Virus record (IMG/VR): IMGVR_UViG_3300042305_001253
Coordinates: 1 to 26,361 of that record
Length of the DNA: 26,361 nucleotides
Direction: 5' to 3' (one strand)
Source: a virus
In this document: piece after piece, positions 2,751 through 22,589 of the stretch
How positions within the stretch are numbered: the stretch's first letter is position 1
Layout: every line of letters begins with the position of its first letter
Translations under genes and position numbers: made by a program
Notes under the pieces: generated by a model
What the model saw: the letters and a program-made list of their open reading frames with translations, nothing else
The model's database searches: none
Told to the model about the DNA's origin: nothing

Positions 2751-3444
2751 TTTTTTTATCAAACTTAACCTTAAGTATTTTATTAAATATACTATTAAAT
2801 GAACTATCTGCACTAGACAAATAAGTGTGATCATCTATGTTTAAATTATAAGACTTAAGAACTAATGGTCCAGAATTATAGACCTTAACGTCCTCCATCT
2901 GTGTGCCACCCACATTAAACTTATTTCCATATATGGATCTCCATAAAAATTGATCTAAAAGTTCTAATACTATCTTTAATTTTTCTTTTTCCATAATCAT
3001 GGGAACGTGGAGTTCATAGTCTAAAGGATTTTCAAATCCTAATGCTTTAAGTTTTTTATATGTGCCTGAGAGTTTTCTGGTGTACTGAGAGTTACCATTG
3101 AGTTTTTGGTATAGGTTTATCTTATCTAACAGAAAGCCACTATGAAAATTTTCTATCTTGTTTATTTTTTTAATAATATAAAAGTCATCATTCATTAAAA
3201 TAAATGATTCTGATATTTCTTTTGAAAAACAAATTGTTTGTAAATTTTTTACAGCATTTTTATACTTTGATTCTTTTTGTTCTACTTCTATATAATTTCC
3301 TATATACCAATCAGGTTTACCACCAACAAGCCATATGTTTGCATCTGGAAAACTTTCAGCGACAGATCTAATTGAATACTTTAGTTCTTCATTTACCCCG
3401 TCTTTACATATATATACAAAATCTTTTTTATTCCCAAATTGCAT
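2734..3444 (-). CDS. Stealth-like / capsular phosphotransferase-type glycosyltransferase
   Basis: The protein of about 236 residues matches the order of conserved blocks in Stealth-family hexose-1-phosphate transferases. DFVYI comes near the N terminus, then N-E-E-L-K-Y-S-I-R-S, then a strand ending NIWLVGGKPDWY, and finally ILMNDDFYI, the metal-binding Asp-Asp block. Stealth enzymes transfer sugar phosphates in capsule assembly, and phage relatives are usually annotated only as nucleotide-diphospho-sugar transferases. ATG at 3444 is chosen as start. An in-frame TTG at 3483 would add 13 residues, and neither start has a clear ribosome-binding site. It follows the epimerase gene after 51 bases and is strikingly AT-rich. 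Function by analogy only. Confidence 0.62.
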   Translation of the reverse strand: MQFGNKKDFVYICKDGVNEELKYSIRSVAESFPDANIWLVGGKPDWYIGNYIEVEQKESKYKNAVKNLQTICFSKEISESFILMNDDFYIIKKINKIENFHSGFLLDKINLYQKLNGNSQYTRKLSGTYKKLKALGFENPLDYELHVPMIMEKEKLKIVLELLDQFLWRSIYGNKFNVGGTQMEDVKVYNSGPLVLKSYNLNIDDHTYLSSADSSFNSIFNKILKVKFDKKTKFEK

Positions 3445-3495
3445 ATTTATAATTTCTACAAAATCTATTTGTATCTGTTTCAAAAAACTTTATCA

Positions 3496-4395
3496 TTAAA
3501 TACTTCTTTCTTTAAACCATTGATCTAAAGTTATACTTGGTTCCCAATCAAAGACTTCTTTTACTTTTTTAATATTTGCAAGTGTTTCTCTTGCTTCTCC
3601 AAGTCTTTCTGGAATATTAATAGTATTATCTGATATAAAAGATGCAATTTGATTCACAGAATAATTTGTTCCAGTTCCAACATTAAAAACATTGCCAAAG
3701 TATTTACGATCAATATCTTTTGTTGTTGCAAGTATGTTTATATCTACAACATCTTTAACATTTGTAAAGTCTCTTCTTTGTTCTCCATCGCCAACAATTG
3801 TTAATTTTTCACCATTTAATTTTTGAACATCAAACAGTCCAATCACTGGTGCATATATACCTTTTGTCGGATGCCTATTTCCATATACATTAAAATATCT
3901 AAATATTATTGTATCTAATCCAAAAATGTTTGTATACATTGAACATAATTTTTCTCCAGCAACTTTGGAAATTGAATATGGGTTTAAACAATCGTCTGGC
4001 TGTGTTTCTTCATTTGGTATTTTATTTCTTCCATATGCGGAAGATGTTGAAGAATATACGACTCTTTTAACATTTGCTTCTTTTGAACATTGAAGTACTG
4101 TTGTAGTCCCAACTACATTTGTTTTTACAGATCTTATTGGATTTTTTATTGTTCTCTGTATTCTTGCTTCTGCTGCAACATGAAATACATAGTCAACTCC
4201 ATTGTAAAGATTTCTTGTGCTTTCATAATCACATATGTCTAATTTATAGTTTTTTGCATTTTCATTCCAAAAAAAATGATCATGAGACTCAGAAGACTCA
4301 TTGTCAATAACAACAACTTCATGACCAAGTTTAACCAAAGAATCAACTATGTTTGATCCGATAAATCCAGCACCGCCAGTTACTAAGTATTTCAT
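3496..4395 (-). CDS. NAD-dependent nucleotide-sugar epimerase/dehydratase (extended SDR)
   Basis: This 299-residue enzyme has the full set of extended short-chain dehydrogenase marks. GGAGFIG at residues 7-13 binds NAD. DICDYES at 53-59 contacts adenine. The Ser/Thr-rich strand YSSTSSAYG at 114-122 is followed by the catalytic Y140-x3-K144. FRYFNVYG and GDGEQRRDF in the second half are typical of UDP-sugar 4-epimerases. It probably converts a UDP- or dTDP-sugar and so supplies the neighbouring transferases. It is slightly shorter than typical GalE proteins but appears intact. Its ATG overlaps the stop of the upstream GT2 gene (ATGA), with GAGG eight bases before. The exact sugar cannot be read from the sequence. 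Confidence 0.88.
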   Translation of the reverse strand: MKYLVTGGAGFIGSNIVDSLVKLGHEVVVIDNESSESHDHFFWNENAKNYKLDICDYESTRNLYNGVDYVFHVAAEARIQRTIKNPIRSVKTNVVGTTTVLQCSKEANVKRVVYSSTSSAYGRNKIPNEETQPDDCLNPYSISKVAGEKLCSMYTNIFGLDTIIFRYFNVYGNRHPTKGIYAPVIGLFDVQKLNGEKLTIVGDGEQRRDFTNVKDVVDINILATTKDIDRKYFGNVFNVGTGTNYSVNQIASFISDNTINIPERLGEARETLANIKKVKEVFDWEPSITLDQWFKERSI

Positions 4396-5123
4396 TTTAT
4401 TGCCTCATCAATAGAAAAAAATGGTTTATAAAAATCTTTGTTTTCTTTCATTTGACTAATTTTATTCATATAATTATCAAAGTGTGGTTTTCTAATATCC
4501 ATTCCCATCCTTACTATCATATTTTTATCTGTTATTTGAGAATAATACAGTAATTCTTTTAAAGTTAAAATTTTATATTTTTTATTTATTTCAATATATT
4601 TTAAAATTCTATTCCAAAGTTCTGTGTCAGAACTACACATATAGTTATCATAATATCCAAATATTTCAAATGATTTTTTAGAAAAAAAGGCATGAGCATG
4701 ATTTGGCATTGTCTTCCCAACTTTTGCAAACCATTCTGGTGGAGTTCCACCAATCCTTAAATCAAAATCTTGAACGGCTAAAACATTTTCATCATCAAAA
4801 AGTTTAATTATTTTTTCAAATCTTGTTGAGTCTGAAAAATCATCTGCATCATGCGTTGTATAAACATCAAAATGTTCCTCTTCTAATAATTTTATTCCAA
4901 TATTTTTACTATAAAAACAACCACCATTTTTTTGATTATTTATTAATTCAATGTTATTGTTTTTTAAATATGGTTCAATTTTTTTTAAAGAGTTATCAGT
5001 AGAGAAGTCATTAACAATACATAATTTAAAATTTTTAAATGTTTGGTTAATTACACTATTAATTGCTCTTTCAATATACTTTTCATCATTATGCACTGGC
5101 ATAACAACTAATAATTTTTTCAT
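4392..5123 (-). CDS. Glycosyltransferase family 2
   Basis: The 243-residue protein starts with the GT2 hallmark LLVVMPVHNDEKYIERAINS and continues with LCIVNDFSTDNS (residues 34-45) and H91-D92-A93-D94-D95, the DxD metal site that holds the donor nucleotide sugar. It lacks membrane segments. Translation starts at ATG 5123 behind a strong AAGGAG seven bases upstream. An intrinsic terminator sits directly before this gene, so it either depends on read-through or has its own promoter, which is not evident. It ends in Glu-Ala-Ile-Lys, and this coding sequence forms the ribosome-binding site of the epimerase gene. It probably works with the epimerase and Stealth-like transferase on one glycan. Confidence 0.88.
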   Translation of the reverse strand: MKKLLVVMPVHNDEKYIERAINSVINQTFKNFKLCIVNDFSTDNSLKKIEPYLKNNNIELINNQKNGGCFYSKNIGIKLLEEEHFDVYTTHDADDFSDSTRFEKIIKLFDDENVLAVQDFDLRIGGTPPEWFAKVGKTMPNHAHAFFSKKSFEIFGYYDNYMCSSDTELWNRILKYIEINKKYKILTLKELLYYSQITDKNMIVRMGMDIRKPHFDNYMNKISQMKENKDFYKPFFSIDEAIK

Positions 5124-5140
5124 AATAACTCCTTAATTAA

Positions 5141-5173
5141 AAAATGGGCCTAGAATAAAACCAGACCCATTTT
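5141..5173 (-). terminator. Intrinsic terminator downstream of the membrane-protein gene at 5185
   Basis: Read on the minus strand, AAAATGGG and CCCATTTT form an 8-bp stem, extended after one mismatch by two more pairs. The descending arm runs straight into a T-tract. This is the standard Rho-independent form. It lies 12 bases after the stop of the upstream gene and just before the ribosome-binding site of the GT2 gene, so it would separate the 5185-6744 gene string from the glycan block. Confidence 0.75.
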
Positions 5174-5184
5174 CTATAATTAAA

Positions 5185-6765: not shown

Positions 6766-8286
6766 TTAGTTATTCTTAATTATATCAATAAAATCATTAT
6801 GTGTCAAGAAATTAGGTATTAATATTTTTTGTGCATTTAAAATAAGTTTATAGTCTTGTTTTTTTAAATTATCCAATATTGTTTTAGATATTTTTTTCAT
6901 GTTGTTTTTATTAATAAGTTCATTTCCGATTAAAATATAATAATAAGAAGAAGAACTAAATATTGTATTATCAAATAAGTCAAATATTTTAACTAAAGGT
7001 TTATCATTACAAGTATTTAAAATGTAAGATATTTTTTCTGGCATTTTATTTTTTTTAGTAAAGTCTTGCCAAAATATACTATTTTTTTTATTTGTTACAT
7101 AATGTAAATATAGAAAATCAACAATTTCTTGTGTTTCATTTAAATAAAGATCGTTAAACCTTTGTTTAATAAAATCATTTTTTGTATTTAAATTTTCTCT
7201 ATCTGACATAAATCTTTGTAAAACAAAAATTGTTTGCATAATAGATGTTGCTTCTAATGGTTCTACAAAACCAGAGGATAGGCCTACGGATAAACAATTT
7301 TTAATCCAAATTTTTTCAAAACATCCTGCAGAAAAAGTAAATGCTCCTTTTTCTTTTCTTGGATATTCTGGTTCAAAGCCTAAATATTTTTCTATTTCTT
7401 TTATTGCATCTTCATCAGAAATGTAGTCGCTGTCAAAAACATATCCACAACCATATCTGTGTTGCAATGGTATTTTCCACATCCATCCGTAATCCATGGC
7501 TATTGATTCTGTGTAAGGAGGTATTTTTTCATCCATTTTTAAAAAAAACGGAATTGCTTTTTTTGCTGGCAAGTTTTCAGAATGAGATTTCCAATTGCTT
7601 TTATAATGATTACCAATAATTAATTTTCTAAAGCCAGAGCAATCAAAAACAAAGTCACAATCTATTTCTTCTTTTTCTGTTTTTAATTTATTAATATATC
7701 CTTCTTTATTATTAAATACTTTATTTATAATTCCTTCTTTTCTAATTATTCCACGACTTTCTCCTATATTTTTTAAATAATTTGCTAAAAGTTTTGCATC
7801 AAAATGAATAGAAGTTGCAGCAAATTGATCTGTGATTTTATTTTTATTATTTTTTATAAACGGAACAAGCATTAAATCAGACGCTTGTTCTACTAAAGAA
7901 TAGTCCTTTAAACTATGATTTTCTAAAGATGCACAAAAATGAGCAAAGTTTGTATCATTTTCTAAATAAGAACTGTTTAAATGAAAATTGTAATCATTTG
8001 ATGCCACGCTATTTGAAAAAAATGGATGAAAGTAATCCTTGTTTGACCAATTTGTAAACTTAATTCCATTTTTTATTGTTGACTGGCAATTTTTAATTAA
8101 ATCTGTATATGGTATTTCTAAAAAATTTAAAAAATCAATAAAATTTGGAGTAGATCCTTCTCCAGCACCTAAAATTCCATAATCTTCGCTTTCTATTAAA
8201 ATTACATTATGTGTATCATATATTTTTTTAGCATATAATGCCGTTAACCAACCAGCAGTTCCACCACCTATAACAACTATATTCAT
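6766..8286 (-). CDS. Flavin-dependent tryptophan-halogenase-family enzyme
   Basis: The 506-residue protein has all key marks of FADH2-dependent halogenases. GGGTAGW at 7-13 binds FAD. GIKFTNW at 74-80 carries K76, aligned with the lysine that forms the hypohalous adduct. The diagnostic WxWxIP motif is present as WMWKIP at 268-273, and GLSSGFVEPLEAT near 335-346 carries the conserved active-site glutamate. Such enzymes need reduced flavin, O2 and halide, usually with a partner flavin reductase, none of which is seen here. The family includes phage members, one from a cyanophage shown to be an iodinase. The start overlaps the sulfotransferase stop by four bases (ATGA). The gene is markedly AT-rich, which suggests acquisition as part of a cassette. 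The substrate is unknown. Confidence 0.9.
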   Translation of the reverse strand: MNIVVIGGGTAGWLTALYAKKIYDTHNVILIESEDYGILGAGEGSTPNFIDFLNFLEIPYTDLIKNCQSTIKNGIKFTNWSNKDYFHPFFSNSVASNDYNFHLNSSYLENDTNFAHFCASLENHSLKDYSLVEQASDLMLVPFIKNNKNKITDQFAATSIHFDAKLLANYLKNIGESRGIIRKEGIINKVFNNKEGYINKLKTEKEEIDCDFVFDCSGFRKLIIGNHYKSNWKSHSENLPAKKAIPFFLKMDEKIPPYTESIAMDYGWMWKIPLQHRYGCGYVFDSDYISDEDAIKEIEKYLGFEPEYPRKEKGAFTFSAGCFEKIWIKNCLSVGLSSGFVEPLEATSIMQTIFVLQRFMSDRENLNTKNDFIKQRFNDLYLNETQEIVDFLYLHYVTNKKNSIFWQDFTKKNKMPEKISYILNTCNDKPLVKIFDLFDNTIFSSSSYYYILIGNELINKNNMKKISKTILDNLKKQDYKLILNAQKILIPNFLTHNDFIDIIKNN

Positions 8287-9128
8287 ATTATTACTCCCAT
8301 GTTTGAATATTTTTTTATAACATAATCAGATAAAACATCGTTTGGGTCTTTACTTATTTTACTTAACGTTGGTCTTATCTTATGTAAGTCAATTGGATGA
8401 CCTGGCATAAAACTATCTTCGTCCTCTAATTTAATTATATTATTAAAGTCATGTTTAAAATAAGGAACCTCTAAAAAATTGTAAACATCTTCCATTATTT
8501 GTTTAGGATTTTTTATTAAATTATTATAGTTGATAACGCAAACGTTATTTTTATTTTCTTGTTTTAAAATTTCACTTAAACCAAAAAGTGTATTATCTAT
8601 TTGTCCATAAGGGCGCATTAAAAAATCACAGATATTGTCATTTTTGCTTAAATATTCTTTACTCCACCAATAAGAATTTTTCATTTCTAAATCTATGTAA
8701 GAATCTTTTGGCAATATATTAATAAAAGAAGCCAAAATTTCAATAATTGGACGGACTGTAAATAAAATTTTAGGATTTGGATCAACATATTTTTTAATAT
8801 TTTCTAAATTTTCTGGTATTGCCCAAACTTTAGATCTATCAAATATTATTTTTTTATTTATTTCACTATAATAATTTGATATTAAGTTTTTGCCAAATCT
8901 TATTAAATTATCTTTGTTTTTAATTTTAATTGCACTTTCTTCTGTTTTTAAAATATTATCGTAGTTTGATAAAATTTGTACCATTGGACTTAATGGACTA
9001 CTATAAATGTCTGGATTTTGATTTAAAATAGCAGACAATAAAGTATTGCCAGATCTAGGAAGTCCTGATAAAAAATAATATTTTTTTATTTTATTGCCTC
9101 CCTGGTTACTAAAACAATTGCTCCGCAT
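8283..9128 (-). CDS. PAPS-dependent sulfotransferase
   Basis: The protein of up to 281 residues carries the sulfotransferase 5'-phosphosulfate loop GLPRSGNT at 22-29 followed by LLSAILNQNPD. An R-S-K-V-W segment and an I-x-Y-N-N-L-I-K-N-P-K segment, typical of the 3'-phosphate-binding and downstream parts, follow. It would move sulfate from PAPS to a hydroxyl or amine. It is translationally coupled to the halogenase. Two starts are possible. ATG 9128 lies inside the previous gene behind a weak AAGG. GGGAGGC is ideally placed for a start at 9089, but the codon there is ATA, where the otherwise identical junction at 4395 has ATG. The APS-kinase-like fusion at 9799 may help make PAPS. Confidence 0.87.
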   Translation of the reverse strand: MRSNCFSNQGGNKIKKYYFLSGLPRSGNTLLSAILNQNPDIYSSPLSPMVQILSNYDNILKTEESAIKIKNKDNLIRFGKNLISNYYSEINKKIIFDRSKVWAIPENLENIKKYVDPNPKILFTVRPIIEILASFINILPKDSYIDLEMKNSYWWSKEYLSKNDNICDFLMRPYGQIDNTLFGLSEILKQENKNNVCVINYNNLIKNPKQIMEDVYNFLEVPYFKHDFNNIIKLEDEDSFMPGHPIDLHKIRPTLSKISKDPNDVLSDYVIKKYSNMGVII

Positions 9129-9316
9129 TCTTCCAAAACCTTTTTTAATTTTACCACATATTGTAAGGCTGATATTTTATCATCATGCCCCATGTGTAAA
9201 AACTTTCTTTCATCTAATTTTACAGTAAGAAAGTGTTCATTGTCAATAATCTCTACGCCAAACCCTTTAGGTGGTGTAATTGAATGTACAGCCTTACGCA
9301 TTTCATCTGTATACAT
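9086..9316 (-). CDS. Conserved-looking small protein, unknown function
   Basis: This is a soluble 76-residue protein: a short helix, then strands (GFGVEIIDNEHFLTVKLDE), then a helix (KISALQYVVKLKKVLEECG) and a final strand (IVLVTREAIK). The alternating pattern suggests a compact alpha/beta fold. No family is recognised. Its ATG overlaps the upstream stop (TAATG). It ends in Glu-Ala-Ile-Lys, encoded by the same 13 bases that end the GT2 gene at 4392, and that stretch forms the ribosome-binding site of the sulfotransferase gene. Base composition is like the phage-type genes rather than the AT-rich sulfotransferase. Confidence 0.68.
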   Translation of the reverse strand: MYTDEMRKAVHSITPPKGFGVEIIDNEHFLTVKLDERKFLHMGHDDKISALQYVVKLKKVLEECGAIVLVTREAIK

Positions 9317-9612: not shown

Positions 9613-9802
9613 GATCACCCTGTCTTTTATTAGTTCTTGCAAGAATATTTTTTACCATTGTTGATGCAGTTGTTTGAAATATAAAAGGAAAAACTGAATG
9701 AATAAAAACAATAACTCCAGAAATGAAAAAGACTATTGCTATTAACCATGCTTCAAACATATGTTTTAGATAGTTTTCATTAACCATTTTTAAGTGCTTC
9801 AT
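9605..9802 (-). CDS. DUF6356-like single-pass membrane protein
   Basis: The 65-residue protein shows N-x-N-Y-L-K-H-M near the start, one hydrophobic helix (about 18-38) and H35-S-V-F-P-F-I-F-Q-T-T-A-S at 35-47, then a basic tail. The order YLxH, membrane helix, H-x-x-x-P-F-x-F-x-T-T-x-S matches the small DUF6356 family of bacterial membrane proteins as remembered, whose role is not known. The start is coupled to the end of the kinase/nucleotidyltransferase gene by ATGA. Confidence 0.68.
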   Translation of the reverse strand: MKHLKMVNENYLKHMFEAWLIAIVFFISGVIVFIHSVFPFIFQTTASTMVKNILARTNKRQGDHE

Positions 9803-10560
9803 ATATTTAGTTCCTTACGTTTTTGTGTAGCAGATATTGCTTGAATTTCTGCAGATAATTCAACTTGTTCAATTTTATATCCTACATCACGACCATAAAC
9901 TATGTTAGTAATGTTTGGTAAACGCAATACCATTGCATCTTTCATAAACTCATCTTTTGCAATATATTCTTTTACCTGATTAAACTTAAGTGGATCCTTT
10001 TCACTTGTGTTATATGTATTTCGTACTCCAAGTAATACTTGATTAGTTCGCTTACCCGCTTCTTTATATAAAGCGTGATGCCCCTCATGCCATGGTTGAT
10101 AACGACCAAGCATAAGTGTTGTTGGTGCAGACCAATCATGTAATTCAAACAAAGAAATAATTAAACTTGCTTTTTCGTATGAATTTTTTTCATGATCAGA
10201 AAACATAAAATCAAATTCTTTTGGTGCTACAAACATCTTATTTGTATCTTTAAATCTGCCTTCTTTAATTGTATCCATAAAAATTAGAATATCTGGTTTA
10301 CCAAATGCTTCTCTTGTCGCATCTGTTGGACAAACAAAATCTACAATTACTGGGGCAACTCCTTGGTTGGCAATAAGTTTTGCCATTTCCCCCATGCGTC
10401 GTGCCTGCTCTATGCGATCTTCTGGGGTAAATCCAAGATCAGAATTAACTGTAGCACGTACTTCATCTGCATTAAGATGGATAGAGTTAATACGTTCTTT
10501 TAATGCTTTTGCCAGTTCCGTCTTACCAGAACCAGGTAATCCAATTATTTGTATAATCAT
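9799..10560 (-). CDS. APS-kinase-like domain fused to HxGH nucleotidyltransferase
   Basis: This protein of about 253 residues has two enzyme domains. Residues 1-140 resemble adenylylsulfate kinase: Walker A GLPGSGKT at 7-14, then N-A-D-E-V-R and D-L-G-F-T-P-E-D-R-x-x-Q-A-R-R-M-G-E (41-58), the CysC signature that contacts APS. Residues 147-253 are a cytidylyltransferase-type domain with LGRYQPWHEGH (151-161) and ISAT near 242-245, as in NMN adenylyltransferases. The kinase part could make PAPS for the nearby sulfotransferase. The second domain is closer in motif to NadM-type enzymes than to ATP sulfurylase, so sulfate activation is not proven. Second ATG of a TAATGATG start is chosen because GGAG is five bases before it. 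Confidence 0.82.
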   Translation of the reverse strand: MIIQIIGLPGSGKTELAKALKERINSIHLNADEVRATVNSDLGFTPEDRIEQARRMGEMAKLIANQGVAPVIVDFVCPTDATREAFGKPDILIFMDTIKEGRFKDTNKMFVAPKEFDFMFSDHEKNSYEKASLIISLFELHDWSAPTTLMLGRYQPWHEGHHALYKEAGKRTNQVLLGVRNTYNTSEKDPLKFNQVKEYIAKDEFMKDAMVLRLPNITNIVYGRDVGYKIEQVELSAEIQAISATQKRKELNI

Positions 10561-10562
10561 CA

Positions 10563-10844
10563 TTACTCCATTGTTAGTGCTTGCCAAGTAATTGACCAGT
10601 CTTGTTTGGTTTTATGTTTGTTAAATTCCCTTGAGACTTCTCCACCTTCTAAGTATATTCCACCCCAAACGCCCCACTCTTTTCCAGATATACCGTTTGC
10701 AAAGCATATTTTCTTTACTGGGCATTGTTTACAAAGTGCGTCAATATCTCTTCTGGATCCTTCGTGATCTTCATACTTATCAAAAAATGCGTTGTTGTCC
10801 ATTCCTAAACACAAGGCTTCGTCTTTCCACAAATGCTGCTTCAA
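10563..10844 (-). CDS. WhiB-family Fe-S transcription regulator
   Basis: The 93-residue protein has the complete WhiB core: C12, then C38-x2-C41-x5-C47 to hold a 4Fe-4S cluster, and the G-V-W-G-G turn at 58-62 followed by a charged C-terminal helix region. WhiB proteins are confined to actinobacteria and their phages, so this gene is the best single host indicator in the window. Phage members such as WhiB of mycobacteriophage TM4 alter host septation and exclude other phages; whether that applies here is unknown. Translation starts at TTG 10844 with AAGGA six bases before it. It is coupled by TAATG to the kinase fusion. Confidence 0.93.
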   Translation of the reverse strand: MKQHLWKDEALCLGMDNNAFFDKYEDHEGSRRDIDALCKQCPVKKICFANGISGKEWGVWGGIYLEGGEVSREFNKHKTKQDWSITWQALTME

Positions 10845-15238: not shown

Positions 15239-15244
15239 ATTATA
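15239..15244 (-). promoter_or_regulatory. Possible leaderless -10 box before the DUF7455-like gene
   Basis: On the minus strand TATAAT is followed by AGTAAT and the ATG at 15232, the same six-base spacing as at 13401 and 23835. The box overlaps the stop codon of the radical SAM gene. There is no -35 match and no TG extension, so this is the weakest of the three sites, and AGGAGG further up could serve a longer transcript. Confidence 0.42.
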
Positions 15245-16286
15245 CCTCCTTTAACCCTATATTTTTTTTAGTTTTAGATAAAACTTCTCCTGCTAAAGCA
15301 TTGTTTGTTGATCCCAAACTTGGCATAACGTTGTCAGACCAAACTGCTTTTGAACATTTTATACACATAGAAGAATATGATTTTTCAATCATTTCTTTTC
15401 TTTGTTTGCTTTGCCAAATTTCTTTAATAGTTTTATTTTTAATATTAGTGTAAATACTTTCATAAGCAAAATCGTCTGCACACAAATACACATTTCCTGT
15501 GGCAGATATAAACAAATATTCATCTGGAAAATTCCAACCACAGCCTATAACTTTTCCACTGTGTCTTTCTTGTATTGTTTCTTGATTAGAAATAATTCCA
15601 AGTTCGGACAATGAGCCATTTCTATCTGATAGATTTGGCCTAAAAACAAGATCAAAATTTGGAAAAGTATTTTTTATTTCTTTAAATATTCTTTGGTGTT
15701 CATTTTTTTCGTATTCTGGTGCCTTATCTAAAACTTTTAGCCAACCACCATTTTCTGCTTTAGTACTTTCATCAACACCGTTTACCATTAACATTAGTTT
15801 ATCTTCTTTAAAAATTTTAGAAAGTTCGTCATTTGCATATTTAAGATTATTCATTATTTTATCAAACAATTTTTCATTAAATCCTGTAAATTTAGCCCAC
15901 TGATGTCTCTCTATTGACGGAACATTTAATAAAATTCTTGTTACTACATCTGGATATTGTTTGATTAAATCTGACTTACTTGGTGTCAGGTTTAGGCCAT
16001 TTGTATAAACATACATTCTTATATTATATTTTCTATGTAAGTCTAGCATTTCTTTAAGATGTGGGTATAATAACATTTCATTGTAATGAATTGGGTTATT
16101 TTTTATTTCAATGTTTGGATCAACAAAGTCTCCTCTACCTTCATCTATTTGTTTTAAAATATTTTCCATCATCTCAATAGGCATGTTTGCACGATTTTCT
16201 TTTGAGTTTCCTAAATAAGCAACTGGACAAAACCAACATTTTGCATTACAAACTCCATTGGGATCTATATTAATATGTTTTATCAT
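15240..16286 (-). CDS. Radical SAM enzyme with SPASM-type C-terminal domain
   Basis: The 348-residue protein has the radical SAM cluster motif C13-x3-C17-x2-C20 near the N terminus, within D-P-N-G-V-C-N-A-K-C-W-F-C. The C-terminal third contains G-C-G-W, then S-A-T-G-N-V-Y-L-C-A-D-D and S-S-M-C-I-K-C, the Cys pattern of a SPASM domain that holds auxiliary Fe-S clusters. SPASM enzymes modify peptides or small molecules by radical chemistry. No obvious precursor peptide is nearby, so RiPP maturation is only one option, and similar proteins in phages lie among glycan genes. It overlaps the FmdB gene by ATGA and is more AT-rich than the flanking genes. Confidence 0.88.
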   Translation of the reverse strand: MIKHINIDPNGVCNAKCWFCPVAYLGNSKENRANMPIEMMENILKQIDEGRGDFVDPNIEIKNNPIHYNEMLLYPHLKEMLDLHRKYNIRMYVYTNGLNLTPSKSDLIKQYPDVVTRILLNVPSIERHQWAKFTGFNEKLFDKIMNNLKYANDELSKIFKEDKLMLMVNGVDESTKAENGGWLKVLDKAPEYEKNEHQRIFKEIKNTFPNFDLVFRPNLSDRNGSLSELGIISNQETIQERHSGKVIGCGWNFPDEYLFISATGNVYLCADDFAYESIYTNIKNKTIKEIWQSKQRKEMIEKSYSSMCIKCSKAVWSDNVMPSLGSTNNALAGEVLSKTKKNIGLKEV

Positions 16287-18125: not shown

Positions 18126-18965
18126 TTATTTTTCATTTATTTTATTAAAGTATTCCTCAGAAACTTTTATGTTCCAGGCAATTCCTGGATGATATCCGTC
18201 TTTTGCTAAATCCCAGTATGGCAAATTTTTATCATTAATTAAATTATTAGTGTTTGTGTCTATTGAAAAAAAATTTTTAAAATCTAATTCTTTAAATAAA
18301 TTCTTATCTTGTTCTCTCCAAGTTGTCCAAATTAGTTTTATTTTTGATGCTTTGCAAAAACTTTCTAACATATAAATTAAAGTTGTTGACAATAAGATAC
18401 TGTTTTCTTCAATATAGTTTAAGTTAAATTTTTGTTGAGTTGAATCTTTAAATGACAAAAATTCGTTCCATAATAAACAATTAACAAAATTATTTTTTTT
18501 ATCTGAAAAATACAAATCCCTATTAACGCCTGGAAACATAATAAACAAATAATCTGGAGTTCCAAATTGTTCAATGAAAAAATATATATTTCTAATAATA
18601 GAATGAATTGAGGCTGCGGGGTAGGATATATTATAATCTTCTATTGTTATATTTTTTTCTATATCTTGTATTTTTTTTACTAATAGTTTAGACCAAATAT
18701 ATTGTTCTGGAAGTCCTTCTCCAAAAGTATTTGAGCATCCAGCAAAAAGAATTTTTAAATTATCTTTAGAATACTCTTTAAATTCTTTGGTTCTAAATCC
18801 ATAAGAATTAATAGAATAAGAAAAGGCGACATCGCTTTGTTGTGTTTTTAATAAATGATGGTCAATGCCTGGGTTTTTTCCACTAGATTCAAAAGTGTAT
18901 AAATTTGGTTGATTTATTTTTGATTTAAAAAGTTTATATATTTTATCTGAATATTTTTTGTCCAT
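18126..18965 (-). CDS. SGNH-type (GDSL-like) hydrolase
   Basis: The protein of about 279 residues has the block-I pattern L-F-A-G-C-S78-N-T-F-G-E-G, with S78 as nucleophile, N-I-S-Y-P-A-A-S further on (the Gly/Asn region is degenerate) and D256-G-Y-H259-P-G near the end, the D-x-x-H of the catalytic triad. SGNH enzymes act as esterases or acyl-transferases on sugars and peptidoglycan, so this one could remove or move an acyl group on a glycan. ATG 18965 is chosen: it overlaps the carbamoyltransferase by 23 bases with a GGGAAAG site. ATG 19001 would add 12 residues. A related gene lies on the other side of the carbamoyltransferase. Confidence 0.74.
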   Translation of the reverse strand: MDKKYSDKIYKLFKSKINQPNLYTFESSGKNPGIDHHLLKTQQSDVAFSYSINSYGFRTKEFKEYSKDNLKILFAGCSNTFGEGLPEQYIWSKLLVKKIQDIEKNITIEDYNISYPAASIHSIIRNIYFFIEQFGTPDYLFIMFPGVNRDLYFSDKKNNFVNCLLWNEFLSFKDSTQQKFNLNYIEENSILLSTTLIYMLESFCKASKIKLIWTTWREQDKNLFKELDFKNFFSIDTNTNNLINDKNLPYWDLAKDGYHPGIAWNIKVSEEYFNKINEK

Positions 18966-20367
18966 AAACACTTTCCCATTTTTTAATATCAATTTCGTCA
19001 TTTAATAATGGCTGCCCTTTTATGTTTAAACTTGTATTAAGAAGTATTGGAATTCCAGTAATTGTATACCAATTAGAAAGCACTTCATAAAGTCCTGGGT
19101 GTTGTTTTCTGTTGACAGTTTGCACTCTAGAAGTGCCATCTTGATGAACGACAGATGGTATTTTTTCTGGCTGTAAACACTTAACTGCATATTGCATATA
19201 CGGAGAATCAAAGTCCATATCAAACCATTTATCTGCATATTCTGCCATAACAACTGGTGCAAAAGGTCTGAATAGTTCACGTTTTTTAATTAAATTAACT
19301 TTATCTTTAATGTTTGGATTTCTTGGATCTGCAAGAATACTTCTATTACCTAGTGCTCTTGGTCCATACTCTGCTTTTCCTGTTGCTACCGCTGCAATTT
19401 CATTGGTCAATAACTCTTGCAATATTTGATCTACAGGGTATTGACCGCCCAAATCAAATCCAAGATACGGGGTTTGCCAATCTAAATGTTTACCGTACAA
19501 TGCTGCTGCTGCACCTAAAGATGACCCAGCGTCGCCAGGATTTGGCATAATCCAAACATCATCAAATATATCCCATAATATTGTATTGGCAGAGCAATTT
19601 AATGCACATCCACCCATAAATACTAATTCATGTTTACCTGTAATTTTTTTAACATGAGTCATAAAATCAAATAGTCTTAATTCATATACTTTTTGTACTG
19701 CTGCTGCAATATCAAATTTATCTTGTTCTGTTATTTCTTGTTCCCAGTCAATAATACCTTTATGAAAGTTATATTTTTGATAATTTATTGAAGGAAAATA
19801 AGATGAAACTTTTTGATAATATTTTTGCCAGTCGCCATATGCAGCCATACCCATCATAATGTATTCTTCTTGATTGGGCATTAGACCAACTAATTTTGTA
19901 AATGCAGAATAAAATAATCCAAAACTAAAGGGATAATTAATTTTTTCTTTTAGAGTAATAGAAGATCCTTCTCCAACCCAAATGGTAGATGTATTGTATT
20001 CTCCTATTGAATCTAATACTACAATTACTGCATCATCAAATTTGCTTGTATAGTACCCCGCTGCTGCATGAGAATAATGATGTTTAAATGATACTCTTGG
20101 GATGTTGTCTAAATAAAAACGTGGTTTCCAATCTCCTAGGCCACCTTTTAAAAACAGCCTAGAGGCTTTTAGAAAGGGTTTTTCATAGTAGGCAATGTAA
20201 TCAGGTGTGCCATATTGTAAAGCATCATTAATTAAACTATTATTTATATACCAATCATTTTTTATTTTACTATATCGTTCAGCATGTCCCGCAAATAGTA
20301 TTTTATCATTATCTATTAGGGAGACAGATGCATCATGAGATGTTTCATTAATTCCTAAAATTAACAT
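18943..20367 (-). CDS. NodU/CmcH-family carbamoyltransferase
   Basis: The 474-residue protein opens with I-L-G-I-N-E-T-S-H-D-A-S-V-S, the first part of the Kae1-like domain. H96-H97-Y-S-H100-A-A gives the H-x3-H iron site, followed by V-V-L-D-S. P-N-P-G-D-A-G-S-S-L-G-A-A and P-F-A-P-V-V in the second half are also typical. The family moves a carbamoyl group from carbamoyl phosphate to a hydroxyl via a carbamoyl-adenylate, as on nodulation factors and antibiotics. It ends soon after L-N-T-S-L-N-I-K-G-Q-P, shorter than cellular enzymes, which seems usual for phage forms. It is flanked by two SGNH hydrolases, one starting two bases after it. Confidence 0.92.
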   Translation of the reverse strand: MLILGINETSHDASVSLIDNDKILFAGHAERYSKIKNDWYINNSLINDALQYGTPDYIAYYEKPFLKASRLFLKGGLGDWKPRFYLDNIPRVSFKHHYSHAAAGYYTSKFDDAVIVVLDSIGEYNTSTIWVGEGSSITLKEKINYPFSFGLFYSAFTKLVGLMPNQEEYIMMGMAAYGDWQKYYQKVSSYFPSINYQKYNFHKGIIDWEQEITEQDKFDIAAAVQKVYELRLFDFMTHVKKITGKHELVFMGGCALNCSANTILWDIFDDVWIMPNPGDAGSSLGAAAALYGKHLDWQTPYLGFDLGGQYPVDQILQELLTNEIAAVATGKAEYGPRALGNRSILADPRNPNIKDKVNLIKKRELFRPFAPVVMAEYADKWFDMDFDSPYMQYAVKCLQPEKIPSVVHQDGTSRVQTVNRKQHPGLYEVLSNWYTITGIPILLNTSLNIKGQPLLNDEIDIKKWESVYGQKIFR

Positions 20368-20368
20368 T

Positions 20369-21193
20369 TTAAATGCTCTCTAAATATTTTTTCCAAATAA
20401 AATCACTCCATAACAAATTCCAGCCAGTGCCACGATGTCTTTTGTCTCTTGCTAAATCAAAGTATTTATTATTTTTTGTTTGTTTTAACAAAAATAAATC
20501 TTCAATCATTTTTTCTTGATTAATATAATAAAAAGTTTTAAAATTAAATTTTTTAAATAACTCATTTGTGCATTCAAATCCATCTTTATCTAAACAATCA
20601 TAGGTAAAACTAAACAACTTTATATTATTGCTATTGCAATATTGTTCTAACATTAAGTAGGTATTATAAGTTATAAGTTTGTTTATATAAAAACTATCAT
20701 CTACTTTATTATAATATGTTATTTTATATTTAGATTCTTTTTTATCAAAATCAAAAAATCTTTTTGATTCTGGCAAATTAATAAAAATTGCTTCTGGATT
20801 TCCAAAATTTTTACAATATTTAAAAATATTTAAAATTGAACTATAAATATTGTTTCCCTTAAGACCTAAATTAAAATATCCAGAACAACCATATTTATCA
20901 TCAAATTTTTTATATACTTGATTTGCCCAAGTTTCTTCTTTTGTTAGACCTGTACCAAAAGTGTATGAACAGCCAGAAAATAAAATATGTTTTCTATTAT
21001 GTTTTTTTATAAATTCATCACAACGATAATTATAAGAGTTTACATTAAATGCATCTTCTGATAAAGTTGATCCAAAAATCTTTAATTCTTCTTCTTGTAT
21101 TGTTTTTATATTTTTTGTTAGTATATAGTAATCGTCAAGTTTATCTGAAAATCCTCTAATTTCGTGCCAAAATTTTATATTATCAGTATACAT
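20369..21193 (-). CDS. SGNH-type (GDSL-like) hydrolase, second copy
   Basis: The 274-residue protein shows L-F-S-G-C-S76-Y-T-F-G-T-G, F-N-L-G-L-K-G-N-N as the Gly/Asn blocks, and D250-K-R-H253 followed by R-G-T-G-W-N. This parallels the first SGNH protein (D-x-x-H-x-G-x-x-W-N) strongly, so the two are paralogs or specialised partners. The N-terminal 60 residues have no match. The start has only an A-rich leader and no Shine-Dalgarno site. It ends one base before the carbamoyltransferase start, behind which GAGAG gives its ribosome-binding site. Confidence 0.74.
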   Translation of the reverse strand: MYTDNIKFWHEIRGFSDKLDDYYILTKNIKTIQEEELKIFGSTLSEDAFNVNSYNYRCDEFIKKHNRKHILFSGCSYTFGTGLTKEETWANQVYKKFDDKYGCSGYFNLGLKGNNIYSSILNIFKYCKNFGNPEAIFINLPESKRFFDFDKKESKYKITYYNKVDDSFYINKLITYNTYLMLEQYCNSNNIKLFSFTYDCLDKDGFECTNELFKKFNFKTFYYINQEKMIEDLFLLKQTKNNKYFDLARDKRHRGTGWNLLWSDFIWKKYLESI

Positions 21194-21264: not shown

Positions 21265-22062
21265 TTAAACATTGTTATTGTTTTTTGTAGGTAACTGATG
21301 ATCTTTAAATTTATTTCCACGTACATCTTTTCCAGAGTAATAAATTTTATCTGCTACATATTGTGATTTTAAATTATCAAAATCTCTACTTTTCCCATGT
21401 TCATTTACAACTGTCATTTCTTCTTCTACAATGTTTTTATCAAAAATATCATACGCATTTTTTAATTCAAAAGAATCGCAAAAATATCTTGGTATTGGAA
21501 TTATTCCTGCTAAAGGGGTATCTTTTATTATTTGATATTTTAAATTAGGAAAATCTAATTTTATATTTAACGTAAAAGAAAATCTAATATTATCTGACTC
21601 TACAACACCAGTCATTGGACTTAGTCCAGGAAGTAAAAAATTAGGCGGAGCAATTGTCATTAAATTAACACCTGGGGGAGTTTTAAGAGTAAGTGGAAAA
21701 TGAATAGTAAGTATGCCATGGCCAAACTCGGAAGTAGGATATACAAAGTTTGATCCTTCATATGGTGTAACTTCTTCCCCCATTTCTACTACAAGATCAT
21801 TTTTTTTATCTCCACCATTCCAATAAACACTAAATTCATAAGGCAAACTAAAAACAAATCCTTGCATATTACCAATTGATAATGGCAAACATTTATAAAA
21901 ATGTGGAGTGAACCAATCTCTTTTGTGGTCAGTATTTAGTGGTCTTAAAAATGAACTAATAGTGTTTATATCAAAAGGTTTTACACCTTCGTTTGGTATA
22001 ATTGGGAAAAATGCAATAGTATTTTCTGGAACAACTAGACTACCTTCTTGATTAATTATCAT
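21265..22062 (-). CDS. DUF6065-like protein
   Basis: The 265-residue soluble protein has segments that I recognise from an uncharacterised family found in bacteria and marine phages: P-L-N-T-D-x-x-R-D-W-F-T-P-H-F-Y-K-C-L-P-L-S-I-G-N, then V-Y-W-N-G-G-D, F-G-H-G-I-L-T-I-H-F, P-P-G-V-N-L-M-T-I-A-P-P-N, G-L-S-P-M-T-G-V-V-E-S-D-N and I-P-I-P-R-Y-F. The pattern of beta strands, Pro and Gly suggests a double-stranded beta-helix (cupin-like) fold. No catalytic residues can be named. It overlaps the Ntn hydrolase stop by ATGA, so the two are co-translated. Confidence 0.72.
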   Translation of the reverse strand: MIINQEGSLVVPENTIAFFPIIPNEGVKPFDINTISSFLRPLNTDHKRDWFTPHFYKCLPLSIGNMQGFVFSLPYEFSVYWNGGDKKNDLVVEMGEEVTPYEGSNFVYPTSEFGHGILTIHFPLTLKTPPGVNLMTIAPPNFLLPGLSPMTGVVESDNIRFSFTLNIKLDFPNLKYQIIKDTPLAGIIPIPRYFCDSFELKNAYDIFDKNIVEEEMTVVNEHGKSRDFDNLKSQYVADKIYYSGKDVRGNKFKDHQLPTKNNNNV

Positions 22063-22589
22063 ACACTTACCACATCAACTGGACCCATGCAAGTAGGGCT
22101 AAACTTTATTGCTGAATTTACCGCTCCCACAACACGATTACGAGGGTTTTTAGATTTTTCTGTAGCCGATAAATACCCATAGGCATACTCTGCTCCTGAA
22201 CCCATTGCTAAATAATCTAAATTATATTTTGACAAGGACATATCAATAGCATTGTGTTCATATATTTGACCTTTAATACAAATAATAAGACCTAAATCAC
22301 CTTCTTTAGTAGTGTCTACCCACCAGTCTTCGTAAAAATTTCTAAGTTGTTTAATAAATTTAGTTTGCATAAATTTATCTAAATCTTTTATATCTGGGAC
22401 ATATGGATTAAAATTATATCTAATACGTTCTCCATCTAGTGCTCCTGCATATCCAAGCAAATATGGACCAAGTTTCCAAACCTTTGGAGATGTTAATGGA
22501 AGAATTGTGTTGTCATCTGAGGCACCACGATCACCAGCCATATATATTTTATTGGTTAATTGATCACGCACAACAGCAAGTACGGTCAT
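22059..22589 (-). CDS. Proteasome-beta-like Ntn hydrolase (HslV-type)
   Basis: The 176-residue protein begins M-T2-V-L-A-V-V-R-D, and T2 would be the catalytic N-terminal threonine after Met removal. M-A-G-D20-R-G-A-S and S-P-K36-V-W-K-L supply the Asp and Lys of the Ntn active site, then G-Y-A-G-A-L-D-G and M-G-S-G-A-E-Y-A-Y-G-Y-L (near 129-141) correspond to the GSG loop. It is a stand-alone subunit without the ATPase partner in this window, and probably forms a self-compartmentalised peptidase. It has its own promoter and a GGGGG ribosome-binding site. The target is unknown. Confidence 0.85.
   Translation of the reverse strand: MTVLAVVRDQLTNKIYMAGDRGASDDNTILPLTSPKVWKLGPYLLGYAGALDGERIRYNFNPYVPDIKDLDKFMQTKFIKQLRNFYEDWWVDTTKEGDLGLIICIKGQIYEHNAIDMSLSKYNLDYLAMGSGAEYAYGYLSATEKSKNPRNRVVGAVNSAIKFSPTCMGPVDVVSV

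Follow-up and report, generated by a model that had tools for sequence, protein, structure and literature searches.

The stretch of viral DNA analysed here, referred to as the window, comprises 26,361 nucleotides (positions 1 to 26,361 of IMG/VR record IMGVR_UViG_3300042305_001253). It was compared with other loci and contigs designated by L-numbers, of which L007 represents the same phage as the window (99.96%). A gene for a flavin-dependent halogenase of 506 amino acids with a BrvH-like open substrate site is located on the minus strand (6766-8286), and it directly follows, on the same strand, a gene for a PAPS-type sulfotransferase (ST; 8283-9089). As the preliminary description had stated, both genes are intact, and their identities and positions were confirmed by matches to PF04820 and to Sulfotransfer_3 and Sulfotransfer_1, as well as by the preserved motifs. 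The ATGA overlap of the ST stop with the halogenase start was likewise seen at 8286-8283 on the minus strand, with a ribosome-binding site (GGGAG) at 8298-8294; overlaps of 4 bp occur at 9 of the 39 same-strand junctions in the window. Upstream on the minus strand lie a conserved 76-aa gene (9086-9316), a fusion of an APS-kinase-like domain with an HxGH nucleotidyltransferase (9799-10560), which is a possible PAPS supplier, and a WhiB-like regulator gene (10563-10844; PF02467, 46.7 bits). An epimerase and GT2 cargo block was placed at approximately 3430-5175 on the minus strand, based on alignment gaps and Pfam matches. The view of the halogenase and ST as AT-rich acquired genes is supported, and their low GC content is real (24.6% and 24.1%, respectively, versus 31.8% for the whole window). 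However, the AT-rich island in which they had been placed is not unique, because other genes of the window are equally AT-rich, including two SGNH-like genes (21.8% and 24.2% GC) and a GT2 gene (23.5%).

The halogenase matched PF04820 over residues 2-463 with 346 bits in a Pfam profile search and PHROG 2928 with 347 bits, and no internal stops were found in its reading frame. Its active site was mapped by alignment with PrnA, the sequence of which was checked against PDB 2apg. The FAD loop GxGxxG is present as GGGTAG at residues 7-12 (G7, G9, and G12 are invariant across 44 family members), and the WxWxIP motif is represented by W268, W270, and P273. The catalytic lysine K72 corresponds to PrnA K79 and is kept in all 44 members, the active-site glutamate E345 corresponds to PrnA E346 and is kept in 42 of the 44, and the halide site T347/S348 corresponds to PrnA T348/G349. 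The AlphaFold2 model (pLDDT 92.4) showed TM scores of 0.82-0.87 against solved flavin-dependent halogenases in a Foldseek search. PrnA and RebH share with the window halogenase the fold, GxGxxG, WxWxIP, K79, and E346, but they have a tryptophan-binding loop (Y443, Y444, E450) that is deleted in the window halogenase. The test for the free-tryptophan loop was negative: PrnA Y443/Y444 fall in a gap common to at least 42 of the 44 family members, and E450, W455, and N459 are replaced by F438, F443, and S447, respectively. Further differences from PrnA are the changes S347 to A and G349 to S.

The residues I442/F443/S447 and T347/S348 resemble those described for BrvH, which departs from the tryptophan halogenases in the same way and does not use tryptophan as a substrate; the site of BrvH is open and was likened to that of the peptide halogenase MibH (PMC5945002). 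BrvH of Brevundimonas (PDB 6frl) resembles the window halogenase in its fold (TM 0.82), catalytic Lys/Glu, T-S halide site, the short loop replacing the tryptophan-holding lid, and the F/S at the indole contacts, but it is a bacterial enzyme of 26% identity, whereas the window halogenase clusters with viral sequences only. Since the lid that would hold tryptophan is absent, as in BrvH, the term tryptophan halogenase serves here as a family name, and by analogy the substrate of the enzyme is probably not free tryptophan but an aromatic compound that is bulkier or resembles indole. The dN/dS of the halogenase was 0.23-0.31 against its nearest relatives and reached 0.49 against more distant alleles, versus mostly 0.03-0.15 for the flanking genes, so that the halogenase protein changes approximately three times faster in nearly identical phages. 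The values of 0.23-0.31 among the closest relatives indicate a functional gene under purifying selection. The best reading of these data is a presumably active open-site enzyme maintained by purifying selection.

The ST matched Sulfotransfer_3 (46.6 bits) and Sulfotransfer_1 (40.3 bits), both over the curated cut-off. Its 5'-phosphosulfate loop, LPRSGNTLL, is intact, with L23, P24, R25, G27, and L30 found in at least 90% of the alignment rows, and the 3'-phosphate pair R126/S134 is invariant. The AlphaFold2 model (pLDDT 86) returned tyrosylprotein sulfotransferase (TPST) and curacin ST first in Foldseek (TM 0.50-0.54), and the best 47 PDB matches were nearly all sulfotransferases (E 1e-8, TM 0.5). 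The ST was considered as a candidate TPST, an assignment that was not adopted; the fold is nearest to TPST, but the TM score is only 0.54, and the sequence alignment ends at residue 44, just short of the site that would show the catalytic Glu behind the PSB helix and the peptide-binding groove. The PAPS loops and the fold (TM approximately 0.5) are shared with NoeE/Sulfotransfer_3, TPST, and curacin ST, but the window ST lies far under the NoeE cut-off (29.5 versus 500 bits) and has approximately 15% identity to solved enzymes. The STs of phages S-SKS1, AG-345-O18, and AG-345-L05 are 33-39% identical across the whole window ST, but have no halogenase alongside.

The reading frame of the ST is open from an ATG at 9128; however, its phage homologues begin at residue 14-16 of this frame, and its first 11 residues are modelled as disordered (pLDDT below 50). 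At the position where the homologues start, the window has an ATA codon (9089-9087), located 7 bases behind a strong Shine-Dalgarno sequence, AGGGAGG (9103-9097), and this codon is present in all three ST contigs (window, L007, and L033). Together with the stop of the 76-aa gene, this ATA forms an ATAA overlap; relatives without the ST mostly have ATGA there (GTGA in L008), and the start at this junction then belongs to the halogenase. Judging from the sequence, the ST probably starts at the ATA, which gives 268 amino acids, with the ATG at 9128 as the alternative.

To describe the distribution of the pair, 84 viral halogenase loci dereplicated at 90% identity were considered. An adjacent co-oriented ST was absent from 82 of them and present only in the window and L033; accordingly, the ST adjoins the halogenase only in the window/L007 and their sister L033. 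Approximately ten related phages have an ST-free halogenase locus. In L008, L010/L009, L011, L014, L053, L054, L055-L057, L058, and L060, the 76-aa gene immediately precedes the halogenase, whose start (ATG or GTG) overlaps the TGA stop of that gene, and the locus also occurs without the ST at lower identity in L012, L023, L025, and L026. In one Pfam scan of a pool of 130 halogenase-neighbour proteins, which is not an alignment of relatives, three matched Sulfotransfer_1: those of the window, L033, and, by inference, L104, in which the ST-like gene is on the strand opposite the halogenase. Two 2OG-Fe(II) oxygenase families were matched by 22 and 17 proteins of the same pool, counted separately and overlapping. 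None of the 50 other dereplicated phage ST loci had a halogenase next to the ST, and L106 alone had one within 3 kb. The gene before the halogenase in L029 (LPRTSSMSF...) was considered as a second independent ST pairing and dropped, as Pfam, PHROGs, and profile comparison gave no support. No near DNA matches were found in annotated phages, and no paper on ST-halogenase pairing in phages or on ST-APS kinase linkage was found in the collection searched, which is incomplete. The preliminary description had named, as evidence that would count against it, relatives that lack the pair and carry the halogenase as a decaying singleton; half of this was observed, as the pair is indeed missing there, but the halogenase is not decaying (dN/dS 0.23-0.49).

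The two genes also differ in history. Comparison of the window with L033 revealed a recombination tract (8218-9229, no strand assigned) with only 3 differences in 1,012 bp (approximately 99.7% identity), which covers the 3' half of the 76-aa gene, the ST, and the first approximately 70 bp of the halogenase. Beyond the tract, the halogenase DNA identity drops to approximately 79-90% and the halogenase proteins are 82% identical. The dS between the window and L033 was 0.014 for the ST versus 0.488 for the halogenase. The near-identical ST tract, with a diverged halogenase beyond it, indicates that the ST is a late, separately moving insert. In L058, a diverged C-terminal ST piece was detected (40% identical in protein over 95 aa and 76% identical in DNA over its last 125 bases), and it ends in ATGA on the start of a kinase gene, not of the halogenase. 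Together with the history of the tract, this piece at the kinase junction indicates that the ST moves alone and lands at overlapping junctions. Among the compared relatives, the epimerase and GT2 block was found only in the window/L007/L033, the same distribution as that of the ST (two sister phages). The earlier proposal of one acquired two-gene module is therefore not supported, in view of both the ST-free halogenase loci of the relatives and the separate histories of the ST tract and the halogenase.

An association of phage STs with APS-kinase-like genes was observed. An APS-kinase-like gene lies within 6.5 kb in 25 of the 52 dereplicated phage ST loci, and a halogenase lies within that range only in L033 and L106. 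In whole records, APS kinase (PF01583) scored over the cut-off in 21 of the 45 searched, and in all 21 it was within 2.9 kb of the ST. These records span 15-150 kb, and the kinase is often 7-280 bp downstream of the ST; the probability of chance placement was approximately 3e-11 (Fisher), treating the records as independent although they are partly related. The ST, the kinase, and the HxGH nucleotidyltransferase are separate genes in that order in L043, L044, L260, and L288, and the kinase is fused to the nucleotidyltransferase in L222, L226, L230, L235, L251, L257, and the window. The fusion gene of the window, 0.7 kb upstream of the ST, has an APS kinase domain (PF01583, 60 bits; cut-off 21.1), and it is below the TIGR00455 equivalog cut-off (63 versus 138.7). 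No match to an ATP sulfurylase domain was found in it up to E=1, and its nucleotidyltransferase profile is nearest NMNAT. In the group of the window, the fusion gene also occurs in relatives without the ST (an ST scored over the cut-off in only 2 of 20 long records), and it was found in Xanthomonas, Stenotrophomonas, and Clavibacter phages without an annotated ST nearby. From these sequences, PAPS supply is likely for the clean (unfused) APS kinases; because the nucleotidyltransferase is nearest NMNAT and the fusion occurs in phages without an ST, it is only possible for the fusion of the window. With no adjacent halogenase at the 50 other ST loci and an APS-kinase-like gene near 25 of the 52, the joint halogenated and sulfated product suggested in the preliminary description is not borne out.

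Contrary to the preliminary description, phage halogenases are also not rare, and they are common in environmental phages. Halogenase relatives were found in 66 of 50,697 phage records, mostly cyanophages, and at least 575 loci in IMG/VR encode one; halogenases have been reported in 20 of 153 cyanophages (PMC10452541). In a tree built by a quick method, the window halogenase grouped with viral sequences only, in a clade of 28 that does not include VirX1, itself a long branch. VirX1 of cyanophage Syn10 (PDB 6qgm) is likewise a viral flavin-dependent halogenase with an open site, but its 28% identity and separate clade in that tree do not place the window enzyme in the VirX1 type. The closest annotated phage relative, at 43% identity, is the halogenase of Pelagibacter phage HTVC008M, which differs in being flanked by terminase genes on one side and a 2OG-Fe(II) oxygenase gene on the other, with no ST. 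Three or four halogenases per phage were observed in L030, L126, L093, and L127, and in these and L112 two to four diverged halogenases stand together among several 2OG-Fe(II) oxygenase genes. A protein of approximately 94 aa with two TM segments (e.g., L075:7511-7795), which has no Pfam or PHROG name, adjoins the halogenase in 61 of its own 76 loci; it was rejected as a halogenase partner, as nine well-covered loci carry the gene in the replication module without a halogenase, which gives it the look of a hitch-hiker.

WhiB proteins are stated to be restricted to actinobacteria and the phages that infect them (PMC10611076); the window, with its WhiB gene, is therefore most likely derived from a phage that infects aquatic actinobacteria and not from a cyanophage. 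In the lake actinophage DSL-LC01, the genes for a halogenase, WhiB, and a pyrimidine dimer glycosylase lie near one another (PMC10611076). This phage resembles the window in the WhiB gene near a halogenase, but its halogenase has 27.6% identity, follows collagen-like structural genes and precedes a glycosyltransferase gene, and has no ST. Other genes of the window include a radical SAM/SPASM protein with a weak match to the SynChlorMet cassette protein ScmF (15240-16286), a NodU-like carbamoyltransferase between two very AT-rich SGNH-like genes (18126-21193; 22-24% GC for the latter), a DUF6065 protein (21265-22062; 117 bits), related-looking proteins of which recur near phage halogenases and STs, and a proteasome/HslV-like Ntn-hydrolase-type protein (22059-22589; weak Pfam match) adjoining a CHAP endolysin.

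Taken together, the halogenase and the ST are probably two independent cargo genes that touch by chance, the halogenase being the older resident and the ST a recent sulfation cargo. A host flavin reductase would supply FADH2 to the halogenase; following the conserved mechanism of the family, FADH2 and O2 would form a flavin hydroperoxide that converts halide near T347/S348 to HOX, which would then pass to K72/E345 and attack the aromatic ring. Loss of the free-tryptophan loop would leave the site open, as in BrvH and MibH. With that loop deleted and the site open, free tryptophan is a less likely acceptor than a compound resembling indole or an aromatic moiety carried by a larger molecule (e.g., a phage tail protein, peptide, or surface polymer), which we propose tentatively. 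The ST would later have inserted at the point where the 76-aa gene and the halogenase overlapped, with the ATGA coupling kept by default. It may use PAPS to sulfate another acceptor, most plausibly a glycan made by the phage glycosyltransferase/epimerase genes, and the APS-kinase-like gene upstream would perhaps help PAPS supply.

A joint substrate of the two enzymes is unlikely. An acquired two-enzyme module, in which the same product is halogenated and sulfated and coupled translation matches the enzyme amounts, would agree with the 4-bp overlap, the intact and AT-rich state of both genes, and the retention of the pair in two diverged phages; an aromatic acceptor is also conceivable from the nearest solved folds of the ST, the tyrosylprotein sulfotransferases and curacin ST. 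However, no other lineage examined has the pair (an adjacent co-oriented ST is lacking at 82 of 84 halogenase loci, and only 3 of 130 neighbours are sulfotransferases), the overlap is older than the ST and of a routine kind, and the two genes differ in history, which makes such a module improbable. Even less probable is its variant in which the open-site halogenase and the TPST-like ST both act on phenols or aromatic side chains of a single phage-made macromolecule, e.g., a tail protein, to give a halogenated and sulfated virion, a chemistry that to our knowledge has been described for no virus. Against full independence, the ST-halogenase adjacency either outlasted the split of the window and L033 or re-formed, and some benefit of the pairing is possible.

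The strongest competitor, though itself rather doubtful, makes the ST and the kinase-nucleotidyltransferase the real unit, a phage sulfation module in which the kinase gives PAPS and the halogenase is a bystander. The frequency and closeness of kinases at ST loci (25 of 52 within 6.5 kb; within 2.9 kb in all 21 records with a kinase over the cut-off), the recurrent gene order and the fused forms in L222, L226, and others, and the ST remnant directly before the fusion gene in L058 argue for it, but the fusion without an ST in the window's own group and in the Xanthomonas, Stenotrophomonas, and Clavibacter phages argues against it. Its boldest form, the fusion as a compact PAPS synthetase, was rejected except as a bold variant, the nucleotidyltransferase part being NMNAT-like and not ATP-sulfurylase-like. 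Decaying cargo, in which the ST, its ATG changed to ATA, is scarcely expressed while the halogenase drifts, would fit the ATA in all three contigs and the raised dN/dS of the halogenase relative to its neighbours; it has little probability, given 268 open codons with all PAPS motifs, the strong Shine-Dalgarno sequence before the ATA, the alternative in-frame ATG, and the clear purifying selection on the halogenase.

In summary, the independent-cargo reading corrects two tempting inferences, namely the rarity of halogenases in phages and the reading of an overlapping start as the sign of a shared pathway. It places a clade of open-site halogenases, predicted not to accept free tryptophan, in phages of aquatic actinobacteria. 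The finding that phage STs travel with APS-kinase-like genes suggests that some phages encode the sulfating enzyme together with a source of its cofactor.
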